This document shows, one piece after another, positions 2,096 through 14,178 of a stretch of DNA of 64,000 bases. The stretch's first letter is position 1; each line of letters begins with the position of its first letter. This DNA comes from Candidatus Bathyarchaeota archaeon (lineage in GTDB: Archaea > Thermoproteota > Bathyarchaeia > Bathyarchaeales > Bathycorpusculaceae). The position numbers and the translations under genes are program-made. The notes below the pieces were generated by a model. That model did not search any database and was not told the DNA's origin. It saw only the letters and a program-made list of their open reading frames with translations. The stretch spans positions 1 to 64,000 of the forward strand of contig JANXET010000005.1 of NCBI GenBank assembly GCA_025058315.1, read 5' to 3'.

Positions 2096-2830
2096 ATGAG
2101 CGAGAAGATCAAGGTTACACTTGTAGAAGAACCTGAAAAGGGCGAGGAGAAAGCTGCAGACATGGCGAGGCTTGAGAAGCAGGCTTCTAGGCTTATGGAG
2201 GTGGAGAAGCTCATCGAGGAGTTTAAAGCCAAACTTGCAGACGCTGAGGAGGAACTTAAGCAGTTTAAAAGCAAAAGCCAGCTTGAGAAACGCTTCAGCG
2301 AACTCACAGGCGCCCCCTTCAGGGATCTAACCCCTGAGCTGGAGCAGAAGGTTAAAACCCTTCAGGAGCAGCTTGAAGGGCTGCAGTCTGAGAAAGCTAA
2401 GCTCCGCAACGAAATACTTGCTGGCCTAAGCAGGGTCGTCATGCCAGTTGAGACAGATGGACTTGTTGAAAACGTTGAAGAGGAAGTGTTCTTCAGGTTC
2501 AGAGAAGGCGCCAGATACCCGGCCATAGTATCATTCCTCAAAAGGGAGCTTAAATTCGGCATACCCCCAGTATACGTAACCGTGAACCCTGAAGGCATAA
2601 AAGTCGTAGGGCTCACTGAGAGGACCCTAGCCCTCAAGGAGCTGGTGGCCGCGATAGAAAACCTACACAGCAAAGCCTCAAGCATGCTGAGCCACGCAGC
2701 CCAACCGGCTATTGCAGTACAGAAGCCGGAAGAAACGCCTATGGATAAAATCGAAAAGGAAGAAGAGCTTGAAAGCAATATTGCAGGCCTATTCAAGAAG
2801 GCAAAGAAGCGCTTGCCACCTAAACCCTGA
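2096..2830 (+). CDS. coiled-coil protein of the AAA+ cluster
   Basis: A 244-residue protein. Residues 20-110 form a charged coiled coil rich in Glu, Lys, Leu and Gln heptads. Residues 112-190 look globular (beta-rich, around a YPAIVSFLKRELKFGIPP segment). The tail from 200 on is acidic then basic, ends KKAKKRLPPKP, and is probably disordered. I do not recognise the family. The gene converges on the AAA+ gene with only 15 bases between their stops, and the long coiled-coil gene lies beyond. A scaffold or adaptor role for the ATPase is inference from this neighbourhood. Confidence 0.75.
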   Translation: MSEKIKVTLVEEPEKGEEKAADMARLEKQASRLMEVEKLIEEFKAKLADAEEELKQFKSKSQLEKRFSELTGAPFRDLTPELEQKVKTLQEQLEGLQSEKAKLRNEILAGLSRVVMPVETDGLVENVEEEVFFRFREGARYPAIVSFLKRELKFGIPPVYVTVNPEGIKVVGLTERTLALKELVAAIENLHSKASSMLSHAAQPAIAVQKPEETPMDKIEKEEELESNIAGLFKKAKKRLPPKP

Positions 2831-2845
2831 TCCCTAAACATTGAT

Positions 2846-4594
2846 CTAAACATTGATCCTGTCCAGAACCTCTTCAGGCGTGAACTCCTGTCTAGAGCGT
2901 ACAGAAGCCTCCTCCACATAAAGCTGAACTGCATACTTGAGGGCTTCATCGCTTACTGGAATGTAATCCACGCTGGATCCGAAGTAATTAAGCGTTGAAG
3001 CTGTACATGCGAAGCGAATTGCCCTATCCTCCAGCCTGGCTGAGAAGGCCACGCTTTCCCGCGGTATACATTCCAGAATGGCGTTCCGCGCCCTTTCTAT
3101 AGCCTCATAAACCTTCGGCGTTATCAGTATGGGCTTTATTGGGAAGCGATCCCTAACCAGCGGATGCCCAGTTTCAATAGCATAAACCAGCGTGACATGA
3201 TCCCTTATCTTCCGTGCGCCTTTCTCCGTGTCAATTTCGCCGAAGGCTAAACGCCTCTGGCTCTGCGCAATCTCGACGAAACGCTTCTTGGTAAGCCTAT
3301 GCAGCCTGCAAAGCATACGATCCTCAACGGCGTTGAAGTTCGGATCTGAAACGGTGACTTCGTAGCCTCTTCCATAAGTTGCCACATTATAGTTTACGCT
3401 GAAGAAGCTGTTGAACCGGTATGGGCCTATGACTTCCCTGTGAAGCTCATACTTTATTATGCCTCTTTCCATGGCGAGTTTAAGCGGCTCAACCATGCCC
3501 TTATACTTGAACCAGTCGTTGAATTCGGGAACTATGAAGTTGAAGGTTCTTCCCGCGTAGGCCTGTCCTATCCGGATGAAGCGGGCAGGAGTCATGCCGG
3601 CTGCGTAGCGGTTGCGTCCCGGTATGCCATGTGGATATATTTTCGCGTCGACCTTGCCCAGGATCATGTCCCTTGTGGAGAAGCTTTTACCCGTGCCTGG
3701 CTCGCCGAACAGCGCCAGGTTATATCCGGTTCGCATGCCGGTTTTTCCCTTTTCATGAACTATCTCCACCTCAGCCAGGCCGTACTGCTGGATTATGCTT
3801 AGGAAACTGTCAAAGTACAGCACTGGGCCGAAGAGGTTGATGAGGTAGTCTGCCAGCGCCCTCACGGAGAAGGTCTTTCCAAATTTTACGGTTGCATCTA
3901 AACGGTGCTTCAGCAGATCCGCAAGGTAATCGTTAAGCATATTATCCATTTTAGCTATTTCCTGCCGCTCCAGCTCCACATAGTCCACTTCGCCTTCTCC
4001 AGCGGCTACTTCAGCAGCCTGGGGGGAAACACGTGTTTTCGCCGGTGCGCCAAGCTCAGCCTGGATAAGCGGATAAACCTCGTCAGGTATTTTCCATTCC
4101 AGGTAATTTTCGCCCCTGTAGGATACCTCAACTATTTTTAGCCTTTCAAGATCCGTGATGATCGGCGCAGGGTTCACTGGCTTTTTAAGCTGATCCGCTA
4201 TGTCCTTTAAGCTGCAGCTTCCACCGGATTGAAGAAGAATCTTGAGGACTTCTGCGCCGCTTCGCCCATACTTGTCTTTTACCTCGCGGAGCCCTGCCGC
4301 CATGTTTTCCCATGAGCCCTTAAGCGTGAAGGCTCCATCCTCTAAAGTGTAGTATTTTCCTCTGAAAAAAGCCCATTTCCGAGGCTTATGCTGTGTGAAG
4401 ACTTCTTTAAGCTGAGAGTCGCTTATTGCGGAGGCTATTTCCAGAGCCGCCTGCTCCTCATCCATGCTCCACGGGTCTTCCACACGTGCAAAATATGGGA
4501 TGCCGAGCTGCCTTCCAATCTTGAACAGCTGATGCCGGGGATAGGCCCTTTTTAGTATAAGTTTCCTCTCAATTACCCTGTCGTCCGCTGACAC
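2846..4594 (-). CDS. AAA+ ATPase with N-terminal winged-helix domain (MCM/MoxR-like)
   Basis: A 582-residue protein. Residues about 105-175 resemble a winged helix. A helical linker follows, then an AAA+ module with Walker A GEPGTGKS at 297-304. The Walker B position reads FNFIVPEF at 351-358, so Pro-Glu replaces the usual Asp-Glu. Asn residues at 401-403 suit sensor 1, and a DRMLCRLHRLTKKR stretch (425-438) may hold the arginine finger. The GTG start shares one base with the TAG stop of the upstream coiled-coil gene, so the two are surely co-transcribed. The substrate is unknown. It is not a recognisable MCM helicase, as the zinc finger and hairpin domains are absent. Confidence 0.8.
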   Translation of the reverse strand: MSADDRVIERKLILKRAYPRHQLFKIGRQLGIPYFARVEDPWSMDEEQAALEIASAISDSQLKEVFTQHKPRKWAFFRGKYYTLEDGAFTLKGSWENMAAGLREVKDKYGRSGAEVLKILLQSGGSCSLKDIADQLKKPVNPAPIITDLERLKIVEVSYRGENYLEWKIPDEVYPLIQAELGAPAKTRVSPQAAEVAAGEGEVDYVELERQEIAKMDNMLNDYLADLLKHRLDATVKFGKTFSVRALADYLINLFGPVLYFDSFLSIIQQYGLAEVEIVHEKGKTGMRTGYNLALFGEPGTGKSFSTRDMILGKVDAKIYPHGIPGRNRYAAGMTPARFIRIGQAYAGRTFNFIVPEFNDWFKYKGMVEPLKLAMERGIIKYELHREVIGPYRFNSFFSVNYNVATYGRGYEVTVSDPNFNAVEDRMLCRLHRLTKKRFVEIAQSQRRLAFGEIDTEKGARKIRDHVTLVYAIETGHPLVRDRFPIKPILITPKVYEAIERARNAILECIPRESVAFSARLEDRAIRFACTASTLNYFGSSVDYIPVSDEALKYAVQLYVEEASVRSRQEFTPEEVLDRINV

Positions 4595-6204
4595 TAAGGC
4601 GCCCCCTTGAGGTACCTTTGATGCAGAGTGCTTATCTCTTTCTGTCCAATCCAGCCTAGGGCTTTAAGCTTCTCTAAACCCTTAGAGGCGGCTTCTCTGA
4701 AGCTGCGCAGCCTTAGAAGGTTGTTTGAAGCTGCGGTTCGCATGAGGTTTTCCTCAAATGATTTATCTAATCTGGCCCTTTCCAGGGCGAAGCGCAACAT
4801 ATCGCCTACAGCCTTAGACCTGGGCTGTAGGTGCAGCTTTAGCTTCGAAGCCCTGAAGCCCATTATTTTCTCCTTAAAAGCATACGTGAAGCCCTTCACG
4901 GCCGCAGCCCTCATGGGCTGTATGATTTGGGTTTCAATTTTATCCCCCTCCCGGTGTCCCACGAGGCAGAATGGTAAGCAGGCGAGGGATAACTCATCGA
5001 CATGCCACGGTATAAGCATCTCACTAAGCCTCCGGGTTGTTTCCCGCTTAACCTCCATGAGCTTTCCAATTTGATCTGCAATCTGGCTGACTGCGGCTTT
5101 TAGATTTTCAATCTCCCTCTTTTTATTCCTGGTTTTTTCATCCCGCAGCGATTCCAGCTGCTGAAGTCTGCTTTTCTCCTTTTCAACCATTTCCTCACGG
5201 TTTCTCCGCAGTTTACTGATTTCAGATTCCTTTTGCCGCCTACTCTTTTCAAGGCTGCTCTTCAACGAGTCTATTCTCTTCTTTAGTTCTCCGATTCTGT
5301 CCTCGCACATGCTTAATGCACGTTCCAAAGGGGCTGCGCCTGCTTTACGTCTCAGCTTATCCAGCCTATCGATGATGCTGGCTCTCCGGGTTTCCAGCTG
5401 CTGAAGTCTCTTCTCCAGCTGAGCCATCTGCTTTTCCTTTGCCTCAGCCTCTTTTCCAAACGCTTTCTCTATCTTGGCGATATCAGCCTCCAGTTCCTCC
5501 ATAAGCTGGTTCACCCTGGCCTCCACTTCAGGCTTAAGCTTGGAAAACTCCTTTTCATAGAAATCAACCGTGAACTCGATTTCCTTAATAATCATCTTCT
5601 CATGACGGGCTGCTGTTTCCTTCAGCAGGTTCAGGCAATAAGCAAGAGCGTTCAAGTCCGAGCGGGCCTGCGCATATAAACTGGCGAATTCCTCAGCCCG
5701 CTCCAAGGCAGCCTTAACATCCAATCTTGGAGGCGCTAAAACGACAGAGAATGATTCACCAGGTTGAAACGCGTCCTGAAGATGCTTATGGATTTCTGAT
5801 AATAATTCCTTACCTGATATTAAACAGCCAAATCTGACATCGATTTTCTCAGCAAACCCTGAAAATGTTTTTTTATGGTTTTCCATTGAAGCCCAGAATT
5901 GCCCCCTGTCGAAGGCTCCTTTTTCAACGTCCTCGATGAATAATGTTATGTCGGGCAATTTATGGATGGTGAAGGATGTTGAAAAAGCATCTAAGCCGTC
6001 CAACACCAGGGAAAAACCATCCACAGGGGCAAGCCATAGGGGATAATAAAACTTGGAGAGGAACGCTATTTCACTTCCTGAACTTAACCATGCTCTTTTC
6101 CGCTCAGCTTCAGCGAGAAGCAGGGACACCGCTGACTCCACATCTGAGCCTAAGCTTTTCCCGGCAGCTGAAACTATGAATGGAAGAATTATGCTTTGCG
6201 GCAA
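4594..6204 (-). CDS. long coiled-coil protein coupled to the AAA+ ATPase
   Basis: A 536-residue protein in three parts: a globular N-terminal domain (1-150) with a FYYPLWLAPVDGF segment, a coiled coil of about 240 residues (155-395) dense in Lys, Arg, Glu and Leu, and a globular C-terminal domain (396-536). The coil length suggests a rod of roughly 35 nm (inference). It lacks Walker motifs, so it is not an SMC or Rad50 protein. The stop codon overlaps the GTG of the AAA+ gene by one base, so the pair forms an operon. The start is TTG; the first in-frame ATG lies far inside conserved-looking sequence. Confidence 0.75.
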   Translation of the reverse strand: MPQSIILPFIVSAAGKSLGSDVESAVSLLLAEAERKRAWLSSGSEIAFLSKFYYPLWLAPVDGFSLVLDGLDAFSTSFTIHKLPDITLFIEDVEKGAFDRGQFWASMENHKKTFSGFAEKIDVRFGCLISGKELLSEIHKHLQDAFQPGESFSVVLAPPRLDVKAALERAEEFASLYAQARSDLNALAYCLNLLKETAARHEKMIIKEIEFTVDFYEKEFSKLKPEVEARVNQLMEELEADIAKIEKAFGKEAEAKEKQMAQLEKRLQQLETRRASIIDRLDKLRRKAGAAPLERALSMCEDRIGELKKRIDSLKSSLEKSRRQKESEISKLRRNREEMVEKEKSRLQQLESLRDEKTRNKKREIENLKAAVSQIADQIGKLMEVKRETTRRLSEMLIPWHVDELSLACLPFCLVGHREGDKIETQIIQPMRAAAVKGFTYAFKEKIMGFRASKLKLHLQPRSKAVGDMLRFALERARLDKSFEENLMRTAASNNLLRLRSFREAASKGLEKLKALGWIGQKEISTLHQRYLKGAP

Positions 6205-6290: not shown

Positions 6291-7439
6291 ATGATGGGCA
6301 AAACAGAAATAAGCAGGGATAGATGCTTCTACCCAGATACGTTTGAGGTTAACGCTGTGGATGGATACGGCGAATCAATCAGCCAACCGGGCTTCGAAAC
6401 CTTAAGCAGCCTGGTGCAGGAACATTTCCAAGTGGATGAGGCGCTTATAGAGTATGGAGTAGCCACCTTCTACCTTAAACAGCCACAGGAAACGAAGCAG
6501 CCATTTATACGGTTGCTTGACAGGCTTGATGAAATGGGTATGGTTGCCTTCCTGCGAAGAATCAACGGAAAACTGGTTCTCAAGGTTTTCCCTAAACCGC
6601 CTCATAAGCCCAGCAACACTCTAATTAACTGGCTGCTTCTTCTGGCAACGGTGGCGACAACATTCATCACAGGATTCATAATGGCTTCGAACCTGGCAAG
6701 CATAGGCGGATCCATAGATCCCATAATTGGGGGAATTTCATTCACAATGGCTATTATGGCTATTTTCGGCATGCATGAAATGGGACACAAGCTTACTGCA
6801 AACAAAAACAGGATAGAGGCTACAGCACCATACTTTATTCCAGGACCCCCATTGCCCATATGGATTGGAACCTTCGGCGCAGTGATAATTCAAAAATCCC
6901 TTCCACGTAATAGAGATGCACTCTTCGATATCGGGGTAAGCGGGCCTATCATCGGTTTCGCAGCGGCAACCATCGTGTCAATTATAGGATCCATCATCTC
7001 GGTGCCGGCGCTGCCAACTGAGGAAGCTGCCTATCTGCCTGCACCCCCAATTATCGTGCTGATAACATCTGCGTTACACAATTTAGGGGTTGCCCCATCT
7101 CCGCCGCCAGGGTATGTTCTATACATGCATCCCATTGAACTTGCAGGCTGGGTGGGCATGCTGGTTACGGCGATTAACCTTCTGCCGGCTGCAACCTTGG
7201 ACGGCGGCCACATTGCAAGGGCGATGTTTGGAGACCGCGCAAGATCTATTTTGGCGGCGATATCGCTTTTGCTGCTTGCTATAACTGGTTTTTGGCTGAT
7301 GGCCTTTTTTGTACTCTTCTTATCCTTTCAGAAACATCCAGGCGCCCTTGACGACGTATCTGAGATTTCAAAAGGACGCAAAATTATGGCTTTGATGTTG
7401 TGTGTGGTTTTCATACTCTCGTTTCCATTCCTAAGCTGA
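6291..7439 (+). CDS. site-2 protease family (M50) membrane metalloprotease
   Basis: A 382-residue integral membrane protein. A soluble N-terminal domain of about 100 residues is followed by six or more hydrophobic segments. The zinc site is HEMGH (about residues 162-166), and the third ligand is in LDGGH near residue 305, both classic M50 motifs. Such proteases cut membrane-embedded substrates, often anti-sigma-like or signalling proteins; the archaeal substrate is unknown. ATG codons at 6291 and 6294 are both possible. It is divergent from the coiled-coil/AAA+ operon. Confidence 0.92.
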   Translation: MMGKTEISRDRCFYPDTFEVNAVDGYGESISQPGFETLSSLVQEHFQVDEALIEYGVATFYLKQPQETKQPFIRLLDRLDEMGMVAFLRRINGKLVLKVFPKPPHKPSNTLINWLLLLATVATTFITGFIMASNLASIGGSIDPIIGGISFTMAIMAIFGMHEMGHKLTANKNRIEATAPYFIPGPPLPIWIGTFGAVIIQKSLPRNRDALFDIGVSGPIIGFAAATIVSIIGSIISVPALPTEEAAYLPAPPIIVLITSALHNLGVAPSPPPGYVLYMHPIELAGWVGMLVTAINLLPAATLDGGHIARAMFGDRARSILAAISLLLLAITGFWLMAFFVLFLSFQKHPGALDDVSEISKGRKIMALMLCVVFILSFPFLS

Positions 7440-7459
7440 AAATGTAAACCTGAAAACAC

Positions 7460-7702
7460 TTATATAGCGGCCAGAAAGCCTACAAGCCTTATTTTGCTTC
7501 CGCACCTGTTGCATTGCAGAGTCAGTTCAGAAAGCTCCTCACCCACAACCTTTGTTTCCACAATATGGTAGACCTCATCAGATTCATCATCCGGAGATAT
7601 TGTTACCCCGCATTTTGGGCATGGAAAGGAGCCGTCGCCGTCTATCTTAGTTAGGTCAATCGTGTACACCATGCTCTTTTTGGCTACAACCTCATTCATC
7701 AT
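7460..7702 (-). CDS. small zinc-ribbon protein
   Basis: An 80-residue protein with two cysteine pairs, CPKCG and CNRCG, about 37 residues apart, so a zinc ribbon is likely. An acidic DDESDE loop lies between the pairs. I do not recognise a specific family. It lies between the convergent site-2 protease and the asparagine synthetase, on the synthetase strand. Confidence 0.7.
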   Translation of the reverse strand: MMNEVVAKKSMVYTIDLTKIDGDGSFPCPKCGVTISPDDESDEVYHIVETKVVGEELSELTLQCNRCGSKIRLVGFLAAI

Positions 7703-7788
7703 TTAGGTTCGCCTCATCGCCATGTACGCTTCCAACAGTGCCCGTAAATGTAAATTAATATTTATGAATCCGAGATATGGATCCAGAA

Positions 7789-8775
7789 TTAGAGGTCGTA
7801 GACGACGCCCGGAATCTTTGGGAACGGCTGCACTTCGCCTATGTGCTTTGCGCCAACAATCCATTGGATTAACCTTTCAACACCTATACCTGCGCCGGCT
7901 GTGGGCTTCAGCTTTCCTTCCTTTGCAAGCTTGAGAAGTAATGCATAGTCCCTTTCGCTCACCCCGTCCCGCCTCATCTTTCTTACAAGTTTGTCGTATT
8001 CCCACTCCCTTCTTGCGCCTGAAAGCACCTCACCATAACCGGGGAGGATAAGATCGTAGTTGTCCCAGAAGCCGCTTTCAAAATCCTCGAAATCATAGAA
8101 TTCCCGTGGAATGTTGGTTATCCACAAAGGCCTGTTTGAAAGCTTAATCTTGTCTTCCCACTGGTCGCCGTAACTTTTCAACAACGCCGCCCTATCATAA
8201 ACCTCGAAAGGCGGCTCGAACTCGGCTAGATCCTCGTAGCGGCCGAGTTTTAAGAGTTCTTCCCGCATATCCCTTCTGAGGCACCGGATTAGCTCGCATA
8301 TCACCTTCTCCACGAAGCTACGTATGTCTTTTGAAGATGCATCTCTAACCTCAAAATCCAGCTGGGTGAACTCGTACGCATGTACTCCGCTGTATGCCCT
8401 TTCCCTTTTTTCTATTCGGATGTTAGGCGAGTAGGTGAATAGTTTCGGAAAGGCTATGGAGCAGGCTATCATCTTATGGACTATCATGCTTGTCATGGTG
8501 TTGACGACTTCTCCATATATTTCACAGCGAATTCTCTTCTCGATGGATGCTCCCGGATCAGGCCACAGCGGGTCAGTTGATTTTGAGAAAACCACTGGAA
8601 GAAGCCATTCAAATCCCTGCTCAACATACTTGTCGGATAGGAATTTCAGCACGTAAGTGGTTACTCTTCCCATGATCCTTCTAACCGCTACTTCGCTTTC
8701 TGGAGCTTCATAAAGTGGCCTTGGCAGGTTTCTGATGGGAAGCTTGTGAAGCGCCAAATCCTCAACAGTCTCCAA
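7789..8775 (-). CDS. asnA: archaeal-type asparagine synthetase A (AsnRS-related)
   Basis: A 328-residue class II synthetase core without the tRNA anticodon-binding domain. The segments DPLWPDPG, FTYSPNIRIE, YEFTQLDFE, NYDLILPGYGEVLSGA and the motif 3 stretch AGAGIGVERL match the archaeal asparagine synthetase (the Pyrococcus abyssi enzyme), which uses ATP, aspartate and ammonia. The enzyme derives from the AspRS/AsnRS lineage and replaces bacterial AsnA. The start is TTG at 8775. It is divergent from an AsnC/Lrp regulator, which is the likely controller. It could be mistaken for a truncated AsnRS, but the absence of the OB-fold is normal for this family. Confidence 0.9.
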   Translation of the reverse strand: METVEDLALHKLPIRNLPRPLYEAPESEVAVRRIMGRVTTYVLKFLSDKYVEQGFEWLLPVVFSKSTDPLWPDPGASIEKRIRCEIYGEVVNTMTSMIVHKMIACSIAFPKLFTYSPNIRIEKRERAYSGVHAYEFTQLDFEVRDASSKDIRSFVEKVICELIRCLRRDMREELLKLGRYEDLAEFEPPFEVYDRAALLKSYGDQWEDKIKLSNRPLWITNIPREFYDFEDFESGFWDNYDLILPGYGEVLSGARREWEYDKLVRKMRRDGVSERDYALLLKLAKEGKLKPTAGAGIGVERLIQWIVGAKHIGEVQPFPKIPGVVYDL

Positions 8776-8881
8776 TTTTTCAGCTCACCTTCTCTGCAGG
8801 GTTGACTTGTGAGATTATCATGAGCAGGCTACATTATAAATTTTTTATGAAGCATTTCGCATTTTGTCCGAAAAAGCAAAG

Positions 8882-8913
8882 TTTTTAAGTATAAAAATTG
8901 TTATTTTTACAAT
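8882..8913 (+). promoter_or_regulatory. lrp/asnC promoter with an inverted repeat at the start site
   Basis: TTTTTAAG at 8882-8889 is a TATA box whose centre lies about 28 bases before the ATG at 8914, so the mRNA is probably leaderless. ATTGT (8897-8901) and ACAAT (8909-8913) form an inverted repeat with a 7-base spacer that covers the transcription start. This placement suits autorepression by the AsnC/Lrp protein (inference). Confidence 0.5.
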
Positions 8914-9417
8914 ATGTCTCCGAAACTTGATGAAAAAGACATAGCCATCCTGCACATCCTGCAGAGAGACTGCAAACTAACCGCCAGGGAGGTAGCTGAC
9001 AAAGTTGATGCGCCGATAACAACAGTCTTCGCCAAGATAAAGAGGATGGAGCAGCTGGGCATAATCAAGGAGTACCGGGCTGTGTTGGACGCTAAAAAGC
9101 TGGACTTCGGAGTGACAGCATTCATACTTGCATCATTCTCTTACAGAGATGAAAAGGGCGGTGAGGCGCTGTCTCAGAGATTCATAGCTGAGCAGATAGC
9201 GAAGTTCCCAGAGGTCCAAGAGGTCCACATCATATCGGGGGATTGGGACATACTAATTAAGGTTAAGGACAGGAACGTAGACAGCGTCGGAAGGTTCGTT
9301 GTGGATAAGCTTCGAACAGTTAAGGGCATAGAGAAAACATTAACATGCATAGCATTTGACAGCCCAAAAGAAACAACCATTCTGCCGCTTGCTGTGAAGA
9401 AGCCTATTAAAGATTAA
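8914..9417 (+). CDS. Lrp/AsnC family transcriptional regulator
   Basis: A 167-residue regulator of normal family length. The N-terminal helix-turn-helix (residues 5-60, LDEKDIAILHILQRD onward) is followed by a RAM/ACT-like domain with the VQEVHIISGDWDILIKV strand typical of Lrp proteins. Family members form octamers and sense amino acids. It is transcribed away from asnA with 138 bases between them, which parallels the bacterial asnA-asnC pair, so asparagine-responsive control of asnA and of itself is likely. It ends 3 bases before the stop of the HxlR-type gene. Confidence 0.93.
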   Translation: MSPKLDEKDIAILHILQRDCKLTAREVADKVDAPITTVFAKIKRMEQLGIIKEYRAVLDAKKLDFGVTAFILASFSYRDEKGGEALSQRFIAEQIAKFPEVQEVHIISGDWDILIKVKDRNVDSVGRFVVDKLRTVKGIEKTLTCIAFDSPKETTILPLAVKKPIKD

Positions 9418-9420
9418 GCG

Positions 9421-9855
9421 TTACGATGCTAAGCTCAGGTAATATAGCAGCGGAAGCGCCATGAGGGCTGTGTTTCTCCCCTTCTGAGTCAAGGTATACC
9501 TCACGCGCAGAGGCGGCCCAGACTCAACCGTTCTATCGATAAACCCGTGCTTTTTCAGGTTCTTCAGCTTATCAGACAGCGTTCTAGAATTTACCCCAAG
9601 GAGCCTCTTGAGCTCGCTGAAGGAGACAGCATTCCTCAGCAGCAGCGTATAGATTACTTCAAGGTTCCACTTCTGGGAAAGCATGTTGAAACTTTCCTCC
9701 AGACTCTTAAGATCCTTCTTCAGATCCTCAAATGTTAGGTTTTGGTTTGACAAGATGCTTTTCAAAGTGTCCTCTATACCCATTAACGTGTGCTCTATTC
9801 GCCTTTCCACAAGCCTGCGAAGCTCCCCGCTGAGGGGTAACCCGCGGTTTGACAT
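9421..9855 (-). CDS. HxlR-type winged-helix regulator with coiled-coil N-terminus
   Basis: A 144-residue protein. Residues 1-60 are helical and probably form a dimerising coil. Residues 62-140 are a winged helix with the HxlR pattern: WNLEVIYTLLL, FSELKRLLGVNSRTLSDKLKNL, then YTLTQKGR. The inducer is unknown. It is divergent from the geranylgeranyl reductase gene with 82 bases between starts, so it may control that gene and itself. A CACAC-N3-GTGTG dyad lies directly before its start codon. Confidence 0.88.
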   Translation of the reverse strand: MSNRGLPLSGELRRLVERRIEHTLMGIEDTLKSILSNQNLTFEDLKKDLKSLEESFNMLSQKWNLEVIYTLLLRNAVSFSELKRLLGVNSRTLSDKLKNLKKHGFIDRTVESGPPLRVRYTLTQKGRNTALMALPLLYYLSLAS

Positions 9856-9857
9856 GG

Positions 9858-9870
9858 CACACCAAGTGTG
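9858..9870 (-). promoter_or_regulatory. CACAC-N3-GTGTG dyad before the HxlR-type gene
   Basis: A perfect 5-base inverted repeat with a 3-base spacer ends two bases from the start codon of the minus-strand regulator. A minus-strand TATA box (TTATAAAG) lies at about 9890-9897, so the dyad falls at the predicted transcription start. It is a candidate autoregulatory operator. Confidence 0.45.
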
Positions 9871-9937
9871 GAGTAGGATGCTTCAACACTTATAAAGGTT
9901 TATTTATACAACATAGTATGAAAAATACACTGGAGAG

Positions 9938-11305
9938 ATGTCCGTGGAATATGACGTAATCGTGGTCGGCGCCGGAACAGCAGGATGCCTAGCCGCGAAA
10001 ACAACAGCTGAGGCAGGGCTGAAAGTATGTTTAATCGAGAGAAAGAGGCGCGGGGATGTTGGGCGTAAGATATGCGGAGACGCCCTTGGCGAACATCACC
10101 TCAGAAACGTCGGCCTGGAAAAGCCGCAGCACGGCGAGCTGGAGACAAGAATTGAGGGCGTCAGGATTTACTCTCCTGATCTTGAAACAGCCTTCACCGT
10201 GGAGCATGAGGACTTTTCGGGCTATATGCTGAACAGGCATTCTTTTGGACAGTGGCTTCTGAACATGTGCCTTGACAGGGGAGTAGATCTAATGGATTCC
10301 ACACAATGCTTAGAACCCATAATAGATGGCAGCTGCGTGAAAGGCGTCCTAGTGAAGAACATGAAGACTGGGGGGAAATTTCATGTTTATGGGAAAGTCA
10401 TCGTTGACGCCAGCGGCTTCCTAGGCGTAATAAGAAGGAAACTTCCGCCTGAAATGAACATAGAAAACAGCATTTCCAACGGGGATGTGGAAGCCTGCTA
10501 CAGGGAGATTAGACAGCTGAAAGAGGAGAATGATGAGGCTGAGTACTGCGAAATCTACCTAAACCAGAAAGTAACACCAGGCGGGTACACATGGATATTT
10601 CCGAAAAGCGGGGCAAAAGTGAACGTGGGACTTGGAGTTTGCATGCGAGAAGAATTCCCGAATCCGAAAGATCAACTTTACAGGCATGTCCTAACCCGCC
10701 CGGTTTTTGAAGGATCAACATTGGTTGACGGCGGCGCATGGTATGATCCGACCCGTAGACCCCTAGACAACATGGTGGGAAACGGGGTGATCATAGTGGG
10801 GGATGCCGCATGCCTCGTTAATCCAATACATGGCGGCGGGATAGGCCCATCAATGCTGAGCGGCTACCTAGCCGGTAAGACCATAATTGAGGCTGTTGAG
10901 GAGGGAGACGTTAGTCAAAATGCACTTTGGCAATACAACATCAGATACATGGAGCAGTATGGAGCAAAGCAGGCAAGCCTTGACGTTTTCAGGATGCTGC
11001 TTCTAACATGCAAAGATGAGGACTTAAACTATGGGATGAAATATAAGCTTCTAACAGAAGAGGATGTCCTTAAAGCTGGACTCGGCGAGGAATTCCGGCT
11101 GAATATAACTGAAACCACCCGAAGGGTTTTCCGTGGAATCAGGAGGGTGCGCTTCCTAAATAGGCTGAGGGTTGCAGTGAACCTCATGAGGAGGGTTAAA
11201 GCCCACTACAGAAGCTATCCAGCTTCTCCCAGCGAATTTGGAGAATGGCAAATGGGAACCCTGGCGCTGTTCAGAGAGGCCAAGTCAAAGCTTATGGCAG
11301 AGTAA
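9938..11305 (+). CDS. geranylgeranyl reductase family flavoprotein
   Basis: A 455-residue FAD-dependent reductase. The N-terminal VVGAGTAGCLAAK is the dinucleotide-binding glycine motif, CGDALGEHHL is the substrate-site signature of the family, and VGDAACLVNPIHGGGIGPSM is the second FAD-binding motif. These enzymes saturate the isoprenoid chains of archaeal ether lipids at the membrane. The C-terminal extension from about 370 is helical. A TATA-like TTTATTTATA sits 30-40 bases before the ATG. The stop is 3 bases from the dph6 start, so the two are likely co-transcribed. Confidence 0.9.
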   Translation: MSVEYDVIVVGAGTAGCLAAKTTAEAGLKVCLIERKRRGDVGRKICGDALGEHHLRNVGLEKPQHGELETRIEGVRIYSPDLETAFTVEHEDFSGYMLNRHSFGQWLLNMCLDRGVDLMDSTQCLEPIIDGSCVKGVLVKNMKTGGKFHVYGKVIVDASGFLGVIRRKLPPEMNIENSISNGDVEACYREIRQLKEENDEAEYCEIYLNQKVTPGGYTWIFPKSGAKVNVGLGVCMREEFPNPKDQLYRHVLTRPVFEGSTLVDGGAWYDPTRRPLDNMVGNGVIIVGDAACLVNPIHGGGIGPSMLSGYLAGKTIIEAVEEGDVSQNALWQYNIRYMEQYGAKQASLDVFRMLLLTCKDEDLNYGMKYKLLTEEDVLKAGLGEEFRLNITETTRRVFRGIRRVRFLNRLRVAVNLMRRVKAHYRSYPASPSEFGEWQMGTLALFREAKSKLMAE

Positions 11306-11308
11306 GCC

Positions 11309-11986
11309 ATGCGCCTTGCAGTTTTATCCACAGGGGGTAAGGATTCCACCCTCGCCCTCTACAAGGTTCTGATTGAGGGACACGAGGTTAAACACCTCGT
11401 CTCAATGATTCCGCGAAGCGAGAACAGCTGGATGTTCCATTATCCAAACATGCATCTCATGGACATGTACGCTGAGGCTGTAGGAATCCCCCTTGTGAAG
11501 GCCGAAACCTTAGGGCTTAAGGAGGCGGAATTGGAGGATTTAAAACGTTTAATAGCCCCTCTGGATGTTGAGGGTGTTGTCTCCGGCACAATAGCTTCCA
11601 CCTATCAAAAAACAAGGATAGAACGCGTTTGCAGCCAACTCGGGCTTGAATGTCTGATGCCGCTCTGGCAGAATTCACCTATAGGCATACTGAGGGAGAT
11701 CCTAAACCTCAAGTTTAAAGTTATCATAACAGGGGTTTACGCGTATGGCTTCAGCGCGGATTGGCTTGGCAGAAGAGTAGATGAGGAAACCGTTAGCGAC
11801 CTGCAGAGGCTTAACAGCCTATATGGGGTTTCACTGGTAGGGGAGGGCGGAGAATACGAAACCCTCGTTGTTGATGGACCCATATTCAAAAAGAGGATTG
11901 CGATTCTTGAAGCGGAGAAAATTTGGGAGAGGCAAAGGGGCTATTACCGAATTAAGTTGGCGAGACTTGAGGATAAAGATGGTTAA
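11309..11986 (+). CDS. dph6: diphthine--ammonia ligase (Dph6)
   Basis: A 225-residue ATP pyrophosphatase. The PP-loop is STGGKDSTLAL at residues 7-17, and the conserved EGGEYETLV stretch lies near residues 180-190, both typical of Dph6. The enzyme amidates diphthine on elongation factor 2, the last step of diphthamide synthesis. Length and layout are those of the single-domain archaeal form. It follows geranylgeranyl reductase with a 3-base gap. Confidence 0.9.
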   Translation: MRLAVLSTGGKDSTLALYKVLIEGHEVKHLVSMIPRSENSWMFHYPNMHLMDMYAEAVGIPLVKAETLGLKEAELEDLKRLIAPLDVEGVVSGTIASTYQKTRIERVCSQLGLECLMPLWQNSPIGILREILNLKFKVIITGVYAYGFSADWLGRRVDEETVSDLQRLNSLYGVSLVGEGGEYETLVVDGPIFKKRIAILEAEKIWERQRGYYRIKLARLEDKDG

Positions 11987-12018
11987 TGTGTTTTGCTGGC
12001 TTACGGAAAACTTATAAG

Positions 12019-12046
12019 GTAATACTATTCTTTATAAAAGTAATAC
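12019..12046 (+). promoter_or_regulatory. cbiM promoter: near-perfect dyad around the TATA box
   Basis: GTAATACT (12019-12026) and AGTAATAC (12039-12046) form an inverted repeat with one mismatch. They flank TTTATAAA (12031-12038), a TATA box whose centre lies 21-22 bases before the ATG at 12056, so the message is nearly or fully leaderless. A protein bound here would block TBP. A metal-sensing repressor such as NikR is a reasonable guess from the transporter downstream, but the half-sites are not the classic NikR sequence. Confidence 0.5.
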
Positions 12047-12055
12047 GGGATCTGG

Positions 12056-12730
12056 ATGCATATACCTGACGGGTTCCTAAGCTTCGAAATCACCGCGTTA
12101 ATGTGGATAATATCCATAATGTTCCTTGCAGTGGCGTGGAGAAAAGCCAAGTCCACATATAACCAATCTTTAACGCCTACGCTGGCGGTCTCAAGCGCCT
12201 TCATATTTGTAGCGCAGATGTTGAACTTCCCCATAGCGTATGGAACAAGCGGGCATCTTGTCGGCGGCACCTTCCTGGCGGTTGTTTTAGGCCCGTATGC
12301 GGCAATTTTAAGCATGACAATTGTGCTTCTAATGCAGGCGCTGTTCTTTGCGGATGGGGGAATATTGGCCATGGGGGCAAACATCTTCAACATGGCAATT
12401 ATCGGCGGACTAAGCTTTTTCATCTTCAAACTGATATCCGGCGGAAATGAAAGAGGCGTGAAATTCTATTTCGGTTTATCTGCAGCCTCATGGCTTTCTG
12501 TGGTGCTGGGGGCTCTTGCATGCGGCTTGGAGATAGGGCTTTCTCCAGTCTTCTCCAGTGCAGGAGGTGTAGCTGTAACTGTTCCAGCGATGCTTTTCTG
12601 GCATGCACTGATAGGGCTCGGCGAAGCAGCCATAACAACAACCATCTTAACGCAGCTTTACAGGTTGAAACCTACGGTTTTAGGCGGCCTAGCCTATATG
12701 AGGAGGGGATTACATGCAGGAAGCAGCTAA
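12056..12730 (+). CDS. cbiM: CbiM-type substrate-binding subunit of a Co/Ni ECF transporter
   Basis: A 224-residue membrane protein with about seven hydrophobic segments. The mature N-terminus MHIPDGFL is diagnostic: His2 is a metal ligand in the CbiM/NikM family. Such proteins bind cobalt or nickel and deliver it with the CbiQ and CbiO subunits. Neither partner is in this window. It overlaps the PDGLE protein gene by 17 bases, so the two are translated together. Confidence 0.92.
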   Translation: MHIPDGFLSFEITALMWIISIMFLAVAWRKAKSTYNQSLTPTLAVSSAFIFVAQMLNFPIAYGTSGHLVGGTFLAVVLGPYAAILSMTIVLLMQALFFADGGILAMGANIFNMAIIGGLSFFIFKLISGGNERGVKFYFGLSAASWLSVVLGALACGLEIGLSPVFSSAGGVAVTVPAMLFWHALIGLGEAAITTTILTQLYRLKPTVLGGLAYMRRGLHAGSS

Positions 12731-12989
12731 GGCTCTGATGCTTGTGCTTTTGAGCTTTGCGGTTCTCACACCCTTTGCCTCTACATATCCAGACGGGTTA
12801 GAGAGAGTTGCCGAGACCATAGGGGTTGAGGAGCCTGAACCTGTTTGGGGCGGGCTGATGCCGGACTATACGTTACCAATAATTGAGAACCCCTACGCCT
12901 CAACGGTGCTTGCCGGATTCATCGGTGCAGTAATGGTTGCAGCCGCCTCATTTGCTTTGGGAAAAACTCTAAATATGAAAAAGCGGTAA
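12714..12989 (+). CDS. PDGLE domain protein (CbiN-like accessory subunit)
   Basis: A 91-residue protein with an N-terminal hydrophobic helix, the signature PDGLERVAE at about residues 26-34, and a second membrane helix near the C-terminus (about 63-85). PDGLE domains serve as the small CbiN-like component of Co/Ni transporters and are often fused to CbiM. Here they are separate but overlapping genes. Confidence 0.85.
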   Translation: MQEAAKALMLVLLSFAVLTPFASTYPDGLERVAETIGVEEPEPVWGGLMPDYTLPIIENPYASTVLAGFIGAVMVAAASFALGKTLNMKKR

Positions 12990-12993
12990 CTTT

Positions 12994-13677
12994 TTACTCT
13001 CTGCTTGAAAGGATCACTATGTAATCAGCTGTGTCAGCGCACATGTCGGCAGCATGTTCAATGAATTCCACGAGATTGTTGAATATGACTAGAGCGCCGC
13101 TGTTAACTTCGCCACCGTACTTTATGAAAAGTTTTTTAGCGTTCAGATATTCATCGTCAAGTTTCTTCTCCACATCCTCAACTCTCTTTGCGCCTTTTAT
13201 GGCTCCGGCAGGGTCATCAGCAATTTTTTCAATGCTTTCGCGTAGGGCTTGAGCACAGTCGACGAGAACCAAGGTCATAAATGCAACTTTTTCCCAGAGC
13301 GCTTCAGGAATATTTGCCTCTTCAAGCATCATAATGCATCTGCCAGCGTCCTTTACGTGATCCGCGAAGGTGTCAAGCCTCTTAACAAGGTGCATAAGAT
13401 CCTCACGATACTCTGCGAAAAGCGCTACTCCCTTGGAAAGCTCCTTGAAAACCTCTGTTCGAAGGGTGTCAACTTCCTTCTCAACCTTAAAAATATTTTC
13501 AACCTGACGCATAGCCTCCTTCTTGTCGCCTTCAACAAGCTCCCGCGCCGCATTTTTCAGGAAGTTCACCGTGTCAAGGGCCTTGCTTATCTGCTCCTGG
13601 GCAAGCTCTAAAGCTCTAGTTCTTCTTCGCCTCTCAAACCATATGTAGCTTCGCTTCTCCAACTTCTCCATCTCCAA
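12994..13677 (-). CDS. DUF47/PhoU-like helical protein
   Basis: A 227-residue all-helical protein of the TIGR00153/DUF47 family. The E(x)3D repeats DTFADHVKDAGRCIMM and FIEHAADMCADTADYIVIL give the PhoU-type metal-binding pattern. Members often accompany Pit phosphate transporters and may regulate phosphate uptake; no Pit gene is in this window. It converges on the PDGLE gene with a 4-base gap. Confidence 0.85.
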   Translation of the reverse strand: MEMEKLEKRSYIWFERRRRTRALELAQEQISKALDTVNFLKNAARELVEGDKKEAMRQVENIFKVEKEVDTLRTEVFKELSKGVALFAEYREDLMHLVKRLDTFADHVKDAGRCIMMLEEANIPEALWEKVAFMTLVLVDCAQALRESIEKIADDPAGAIKGAKRVEDVEKKLDDEYLNAKKLFIKYGGEVNSGALVIFNNLVEFIEHAADMCADTADYIVILSSRE

Positions 13678-13725
13678 ATTATAGATTCAGTTGTTGCTTA
13701 ATAATACTTTGCAGCATAATAAGGA

Positions 13726-14178
13726 TTAGCTTTCCTTCTCCGCGACCCATACGCCTCTAACCTGGCCATTTTCGCCTACTGTGAGCTCCTTTTTAAAAAG
13801 CGGAGCCTCTTTCTTGTACCTTTCAACAGCCTCCGCCAGGACGGGGAAGACGTTCTCACGATGAGAGCCTGCAACTACAACATACACCAGATCCTCACCC
13901 ACGTTGAAGTCGCCGACAAAGTGGTGGATTTGAACGTCAACTATGCCCTCTCGCTTCTTAAGGTCGCTGCATATTCTTGAAAGCATCTCGTTAGCTTTCT
14001 CTTCGTAGGCTTCTATTTCCAGCCCTTGCACTTTCTCACCTGCTGATGTTTCCCCGCGGACTACACCTATAAAAATAGCCAAAGCCCCAGCCTTTTCGAA
14101 GCCTTCACTTTTCTTAACTAAATCGACGAGTTTCTGGATGTTGAAGGCGCCCTTAATGTGCACGTGGCCATGAATCAT
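13726..14178 (-). CDS. moaE: molybdopterin synthase catalytic subunit MoaE
   Basis: A 150-residue protein of normal length. FIGVVRGET near residues 36-44, the EAYEE segment, and YKKEAPLFKKE at about 120-130 with the catalytic lysines identify MoaE. It transfers sulfur from MoaD thiocarboxylate onto precursor Z. The MoaD-like gene lies far away at 29.7 kb. No other molybdenum cofactor gene is near. Confidence 0.9.
   Translation of the reverse strand: MIHGHVHIKGAFNIQKLVDLVKKSEGFEKAGALAIFIGVVRGETSAGEKVQGLEIEAYEEKANEMLSRICSDLKKREGIVDVQIHHFVGDFNVGEDLVYVVVAGSHRENVFPVLAEAVERYKKEAPLFKKELTVGENGQVRGVWVAEKES

Follow-up and report, generated by a model that had tools for sequence, protein, structure and literature searches.

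A conserved Bathyarchaeial gene pair for a winged-helix AAA+ ATPase and a predicted hairpin coiled-coil protein

A coiled-coil protein (g3) and a winged-helix AAA+ ATPase (g2) are encoded in Bathyarchaeia by a conserved gene pair that, to judge from sequence and genomic context, probably remodels DNA, since in other archaea the relatives of g2 adjoin enzymes that cut or methylate DNA. The reading that we prefer, at a rough probability of 0.45, is that g2 would be an ATP-driven, DNA-encircling ring motor with lineage-specific partners, working here with the rod-like g3A in chromosome maintenance or recombination.

Gene arrangement and neighborhood

The DNA analyzed is from Candidatus Bathyarchaeota archaeon (assembly GCA_025058315.1, contig JANXET010000005.1, positions 1 to 64,000 of the forward strand); this whole stretch of 64,000 nucleotides is referred to as the window. 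Coordinates and translations returned the three open reading frames of the original prediction with the same positions and sizes (244, 582, and 536 residues). They are listed here with a neighboring pair.

285 to 1053: HEPN/MNT toxin-antitoxin-like pair (Pfam HEPN, 1e-34; NTP_transf_2, 1.6e-8)
2096 to 2830, plus strand: g1, 244 amino acids, convergent with g2
2846 to 4594, minus strand: g2, 582-amino-acid wHTH-AAA+ ATPase, GTG start
4594 to 6204, minus strand: g3, 536-amino-acid protein with a predicted coiled-coil hairpin, TTG start, upstream gene of the pair

The genes g3 and g2 have the same direction and, as originally predicted, share one base, in the sequence TAGTG (TAG stop of g3, GTG start of g2; plus-strand positions 4590 to 4600). 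Their start codons are consistent with those of homologues in the alignments, and on this sequence arrangement the two genes are translationally coupled.

A cluster of three genes, as initially proposed, was not recovered. The gene g1 is on the opposite strand and had a match in only 2 of the 61 genomes searched, the genome of the window included. In the second genome (G006), g1 is located on contig C24, where it adjoins a sugar-phosphate mutase-like gene, and g2 and g3 are on contig C57. Among the other Bathyarchaeial loci examined, only this locus had a further g1 match, and viral contigs had none. Because of its presence in 2 of 61 genomes and the unlinked second copy, g1 was rejected as a component of the system. 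The HEPN/MNT pair, from which a defense or mobile context had been considered possible, is real according to Pfam, but no homologue was found beside the g3-g2 pair at the other Bathyarchaeial loci examined, and it provided no evidence for defense here. One locus (L086) has a HEPN/MNT-like pair upstream of g3 that does not match that of the window. As a defense context, the HEPN/MNT pair was rejected because no conserved neighbor was found; no other defense gene was noticed beside the Bathyarchaeial pair. The neighborhood survey that had been proposed as a check thus returned g3-g2 as a conserved pair in Bathyarchaeia, but neither g1 nor HEPN/MNT. Since these latter genes lack conserved linkage at other Bathyarchaeial loci, the conserved unit is g3-g2, and g1 is a bystander.

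The window also encodes, at 1096 to 1788 on the plus strand, a 230-amino-acid protein that carries a C-terminal CxxC and matched no Pfam family; its homologues are convergent with g2 at loci L004 to L007.

The g2 protein: a predicted AAA+ core behind a winged helix

The features of g2, all on the minus strand, are as follows.

4052 to 4312: winged helix, residues about 95 to 181 (MarR profile match, E of 0.003; helix/wing pattern in the model)
3683 to 3706: Walker A GEPGTGKS, residues 297 to 304 (alignment)
3521 to 3538: variant Walker B FIVPEF, residues 353 to 358 (Asp replaced by Pro, Glu kept)
3416 to 3469: pre-sensor-1 beta-hairpin, residues 376 to 393 (alignment, model, and profile comparison)
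3317 to 3319: candidate arginine finger R426 in EDRM (111 of 111 homologues)
3032 to 3046: candidate sensor 2 FSARL, residues 517 to 521 (110 of 111 homologues)

All 111 homologues contain the Walker A motif G.PG[TS]GK[ST], which was the condition for keeping them. EDRM is present in 111, FSxRL in 110, and the sensor-1 pattern in 95 of these proteins. Read from the alignment, this set of motifs (Walker A, catalytic Glu, sensor 1, Arg finger, and sensor 2) is that of an ATPase. At the position of the Walker B Asp, 89 homologues have Pro and 20 have Thr (2 were not readable), and the Glu is retained; with the Asp lost in practically the whole family, ATP hydrolysis cannot be taken for granted. 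We infer that g2 forms a hexamer or ring, binds DNA, and hydrolyzes ATP.

The AlphaFold2 model of g2 has a pLDDT of 85.3, with a weaker region at residues 360 to 420, and MCM chains account for all of its top 50 fold matches in the PDB (E of 1e-9 to 6e-8). Profile-profile comparison was weak with all groups, MCM being no better than MoxR-like proteins, and the segment LKLAMERGxIKYE of g2 aligned with the corresponding MoxR segment. No meaningful family match was found in Pfam, NCBIfam, PHROG, or PADLOC. The profile searches and single-protein structure predictions that had been suggested as checks therefore left g2 without an assigned family and predicted an MCM-like fold. The core of g2 is predicted to be an AAA+ of the pre-sensor-1-hairpin kind behind an N-terminal winged helix.

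The g3 protein: a predicted hairpin rod

The features of g3, again on the minus strand, are as follows.

5719 to 6204: N-lobe, residues 1 to 162, conserved YPxWxxP...DG motif, no Pfam match
5356 to 5718: coil arm 1, residues 163 to 283 (AlphaFold2 model)
5338 to 5355: coil turn, residues 284 to 289 (model and mid-coil Pro/Gly maximum)
5020 to 5337: coil arm 2, residues 290 to 395 (AlphaFold2 model; best Foldseek match an SMC arm segment)
4597 to 5019: C-lobe, residues 396 to 536, conserved PFYxxxY motif, no useful Pfam match

The long coil between two globular domains that had been predicted for g3 reappears in the AlphaFold2 model (pLDDT of 88.9), with predicted helices at residues 163 to 283 and 290 to 395 on either side of a turn and lobes at both ends. 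When 29 sequences are compared, the Pro/Gly content in the middle of the coil also peaks at this turn. The best fold match was an SMC arm segment (Foldseek, E of 3.6e-4); since the other matches were generic long coils, this match signals a coiled coil rather than kinship with SMC. The lobes alone had no useful Pfam match and no recognized DNA-binding motif, and no P-loop was seen in the g3 alignment. We thus describe g3 as two unmatched lobes with a predicted coiled-coil hairpin between them, similar to an SMC arm without its ATPase. SMC, Rad50, Zorya, and Wadjet were rejected as identities for g3, as database matches fell essentially in the coiled coil and the lobes alone gave nothing useful. 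An internal duplication of the lobes was not supported.

Distribution and phylogeny of g2 and g3

A strong g2 match was found in 25 of 128 Bathyarchaeial genomes, with weak matches in two more, and a g3 match in 92 of the 128, a few of them weak. According to coordinates, 19 of the 25 g2-bearing genomes have g2 downstream of g3 at a distance of at most 1 kb, a count that includes G081 (887 bp away, g3 match partial) and G120 (adjoining g3 match only partial); the g3-g2 gap is mostly -30 to +160. In the remaining six genomes (G014, G040, G056, G121, G123, and G125), g2 is not adjacent to g3. In G014 it has a methyltransferase neighbor, in G040 g2 and its candidate partner are near contig ends, and the last four belong to one genus, of which another genome (G456) has the g3-g2 pair.

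Other g2 relatives are found in Thermoplasmata, Thermofilum, Nitrosocaldus, Desulfurococcales, Methanodesulfokora, Marsarchaeota, Helarchaeota, Micrarchaeota, and a few metagenome-assembled genomes labeled bacterial; across archaeal phyla, homologues are about 40 to 55% identical. A mobile element was rejected, as searches of plasmids, phages, and viral contigs returned no g2. Many other Thermoproteota encode g3 relatives of about 440 to 560 amino acids, with scores that are weak for the more distant proteins. These distant relatives without g2 (L209 to L227) form an uncharacterized coiled-coil family with similar lobe motifs.

Trees of g2 and g3 were computed by quick searches and midpoint rooted. 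The g2 tree has a Bathyarchaeial branch (support of 100) that is g3-linked almost throughout, and the methyltransferase-linked, Thermofilum, Nitrosocaldus, and Thermoplasmata copies are in other branches. Two rows labeled solo (L113 and L138) have g3 directly upstream in their genomes, the start calls of the open reading frames overrunning g3. In the g3 tree, a branch (support of 98) separates 17 rows, all unlinked, from the side that contains all 25 g2-linked rows. That side also holds two rows at contig edges and three labeled unlinked, of which L092 is a start-call artifact according to coordinates. As g2-linked g3 proteins are all on one side of their tree and the Bathyarchaeial g2 branch is g3-linked almost throughout, the pairing looks like one old event followed by losses.

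Genomic contexts of g2 relatives outside the pair

(i) Of the 48 Thermoplasmata loci found by similarity to the g2 protein of the window, 46 have an Hjc-like nuclease gene 54 to 208 bp upstream of the g2 relative, divergent where read, and 40 encode a Zn-ribbon protein overlapping with or close downstream of it. The motif GxDxxA...ExK, as searched, is kept in 43 of 44 aligned Hjc-like proteins. The conserved trio of Hjc-like nuclease, g2-family AAA+, and Zn-ribbon protein is exemplified by L037 (positions 7028 to 9532), with others among L033 to L081, and is a candidate Holliday-junction module. (ii) Tandem methyltransferase genes accompany g2 relatives in Methanodesulfokora, Desulfurococcales, Stahlbacteria, and Bathyarchaeia. 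A large methyltransferase-like gene is directly upstream of the g2 relative at L019, L028, L020, L203, and L204 (the last assigned by likeness to that of L201); at L201 one small gene lies between the two, and at L017 the methyltransferase-like gene is convergent. An EVE or EVE-like gene is near the g2 relative at L017 and L203, and a DndB-like gene at L203 (genome G080). Some g2 relatives have adjacent PglX-like or Eco57I/type IIG-like enzymes, and the g2-family ATPases accompanied by Eco57I/type IIG-like or other methyltransferases possibly represent an undescribed restriction-like system. (iii) The g2 of Thermofilum and that of Nitrosocaldus lack an obvious partner. The role in DNA transactions that had been proposed for the window genes gains support from the Hjc-like nuclease, DNA methyltransferase, EVE, and DndB contexts.

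Function of the g3-g2 pair

An antiviral defense function, in which g3-g2 would resemble BREX (BrxL) or a McrBC-like restriction ring and g3 would be a sensing or bridging subunit, appears rather unlikely to us. It would account for the patchy presence of g2 in Bathyarchaeia (25 of 128) and for relatives in tandem with Eco57I/type IIG-like methyltransferases and with EVE and DndB-like genes, and it has a precedent in BrxL, described as an MCM-like AAA+ with a DNA-binding N terminus (PMC10164562, PMC12839542). However, the methyltransferase-linked copies belong to other branches of the g2 tree, and neither methyltransferases nor restriction nucleases were noticed next to g3A-g2, which in several genomes is located inside a conserved run of genes (S-adenosylhomocysteinase-like, small membrane protein, and nucleotidyltransferase). 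In addition, g2 had no PADLOC match, and HEPN/MNT is not conserved.

The profile comparison, in which MoxR-like AAA_5/AAA_3 equals or beats MCM, and the aligned LKLAMERGxIKYE segment would fit a MoxR-like protein-remodeling chaperone with g3 as adaptor or client and no direct role on DNA. We consider this unlikely, because the neighbors tested include no von Willebrand A partner, the listed structural matches are all MCM, and the contexts in Thermoplasmata and at methyltransferase loci are DNA related. Simple cotranscription of g2 and g3, with no common machine and with the winged helix serving g2 to regulate its own neighbors, would agree with the many g3 relatives without g2 and with g2 standing alone in Thermofilum, Nitrosocaldus, and some members of one Bathyarchaeial genus. 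It is nevertheless very improbable, since the two genes are coupled in several families and g2-linked g3 is confined to one tree side.

According to the ring motor reading that we prefer, g2 would form a ring of the MCM/BrxL type of AAA+ that encircles DNA and then moves or remodels it, the N-terminal winged helix being the putative DNA-contacting part. The use of this ring would be set by a lineage-specific partner. In the window, the partner g3A would be a hairpin rod whose two lobes meet at the base, as in an SMC arm without its ATPase head, and may act as a bridge or tether between the ring and another site, on DNA or on a protein; the tethered ring would serve in chromosome maintenance or recombination. 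DNA as the substrate of g2, physical contact between g2 and g3, and the pathway are all inferred. The motor with rod-like partners of the original prediction survives as g2 plus g3, on the basis of coupling, the g3 tree side, and the predicted folds, but not as a three-gene unit. A broader proposal, which we regard as somewhat doubtful, is that g2 founds an undescribed archaea-wide family of DNA-encircling AAA+ motors that can do without the Walker B Asp and swaps partners: an Hjc-like resolvase in Thermoplasmata, with g2 in a RuvB-like role; methyltransferases in islands of restriction-like character; and, in Bathyarchaeia, a rod similar to an SMC arm, so that g2-g3A would be a new two-part chromosome machine.

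The conservation of g2 across phyla, in the absence of the family from the four libraries searched, represents a gap in our knowledge of archaeal AAA+ proteins. Should g2 prove to be a ring motor on DNA, the Hjc-like nuclease paired with it in Thermoplasmata would bear directly on the movement of Holliday junctions in archaea, and the SMC-arm-like rod that accompanies it in Bathyarchaeia would suggest a chromosome machine that is not based on an ABC ATPase. The absent Walker B Asp is a mechanistic oddity that can be tested.

Comparison with known systems

A literature search of titles and abstracts found no published description of the g2 or g3 family. The core of g2 is similar, weakly, to MoxR/RavA/NorQ by profile comparison, but g2 differs in its N-terminal winged helix and DNA-related contexts; it had no AAA_3 or AAA_5 Pfam match at E up to 1, and no vWA partner was present among the window neighbors tested. 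McrB GTPases and CoCoNuTs combine a ring AAA+ with coiled-coil partners, as proposed for g2 and g3, and an EVE gene is near some g2 relatives. McrB-like GTPases are described as carrying an NxD/NxxD signature (PMC11090510), whereas the sensor 1 of g2, SFFSVNYN, has no conserved Asp at that spacing and g3 has no nuclease domain match. Set against SMC, Rad50, and the archaea-specific SMC-related protein, the predicted g3 hairpin resembles SMC arms, but its lobes are unmatched and lack Walker A/B and the ABC signature.

The Thermoplasmata g2-family genes, which adjoin an Hjc-like resolvase gene, recall RuvAB-RuvC and the archaeal Hjm/PINA-Hjc systems, in which Hjm and PINA are described as branch-migration helicases (PMC8775617). 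In contrast, g2 had no RuvB match, and no Hjc-like gene was noticed near the window pair. BrxL, reported together with methyltransferases (PMC10164562, PMC12839542), resembles the g2 relatives in tandem with such enzymes and is a precedent for an MCM-like AAA+ outside replication (PMC10164562). No BrxL match was obtained for g2 in Pfam, NCBIfam, or PADLOC, nor for two relatives in PADLOC. No BREX genes were noticed beside g2 of the window; PglZ and PglX were absent from the five neighboring window genes scanned, those at 7702 to 14000 being read only.

A separate MCM is encoded on contig C53 of the genome to which the window belongs. In g2, FIVPEFNDW (F[IV][IV][PT]E in relatives) replaces the IDEFDKM of MCM, the Pfam MCM profile (PF00493) gave no match at E up to 1, and the MCM helix-2 insert may be absent, helix 336 to 346 being uninterrupted in the model and the region 8 columns shorter than in MCM in the profile alignment. 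The likeness lies in the fold matches, in the predicted pre-sensor-1 hairpin (strands 379 to 384 and 387 to 393), and in a GR...GxT stretch before Walker B that aligns with MCM. The earlier statement that g2 does not fit MCM thus holds for family membership, although among solved folds that of MCM is the nearest to g2.
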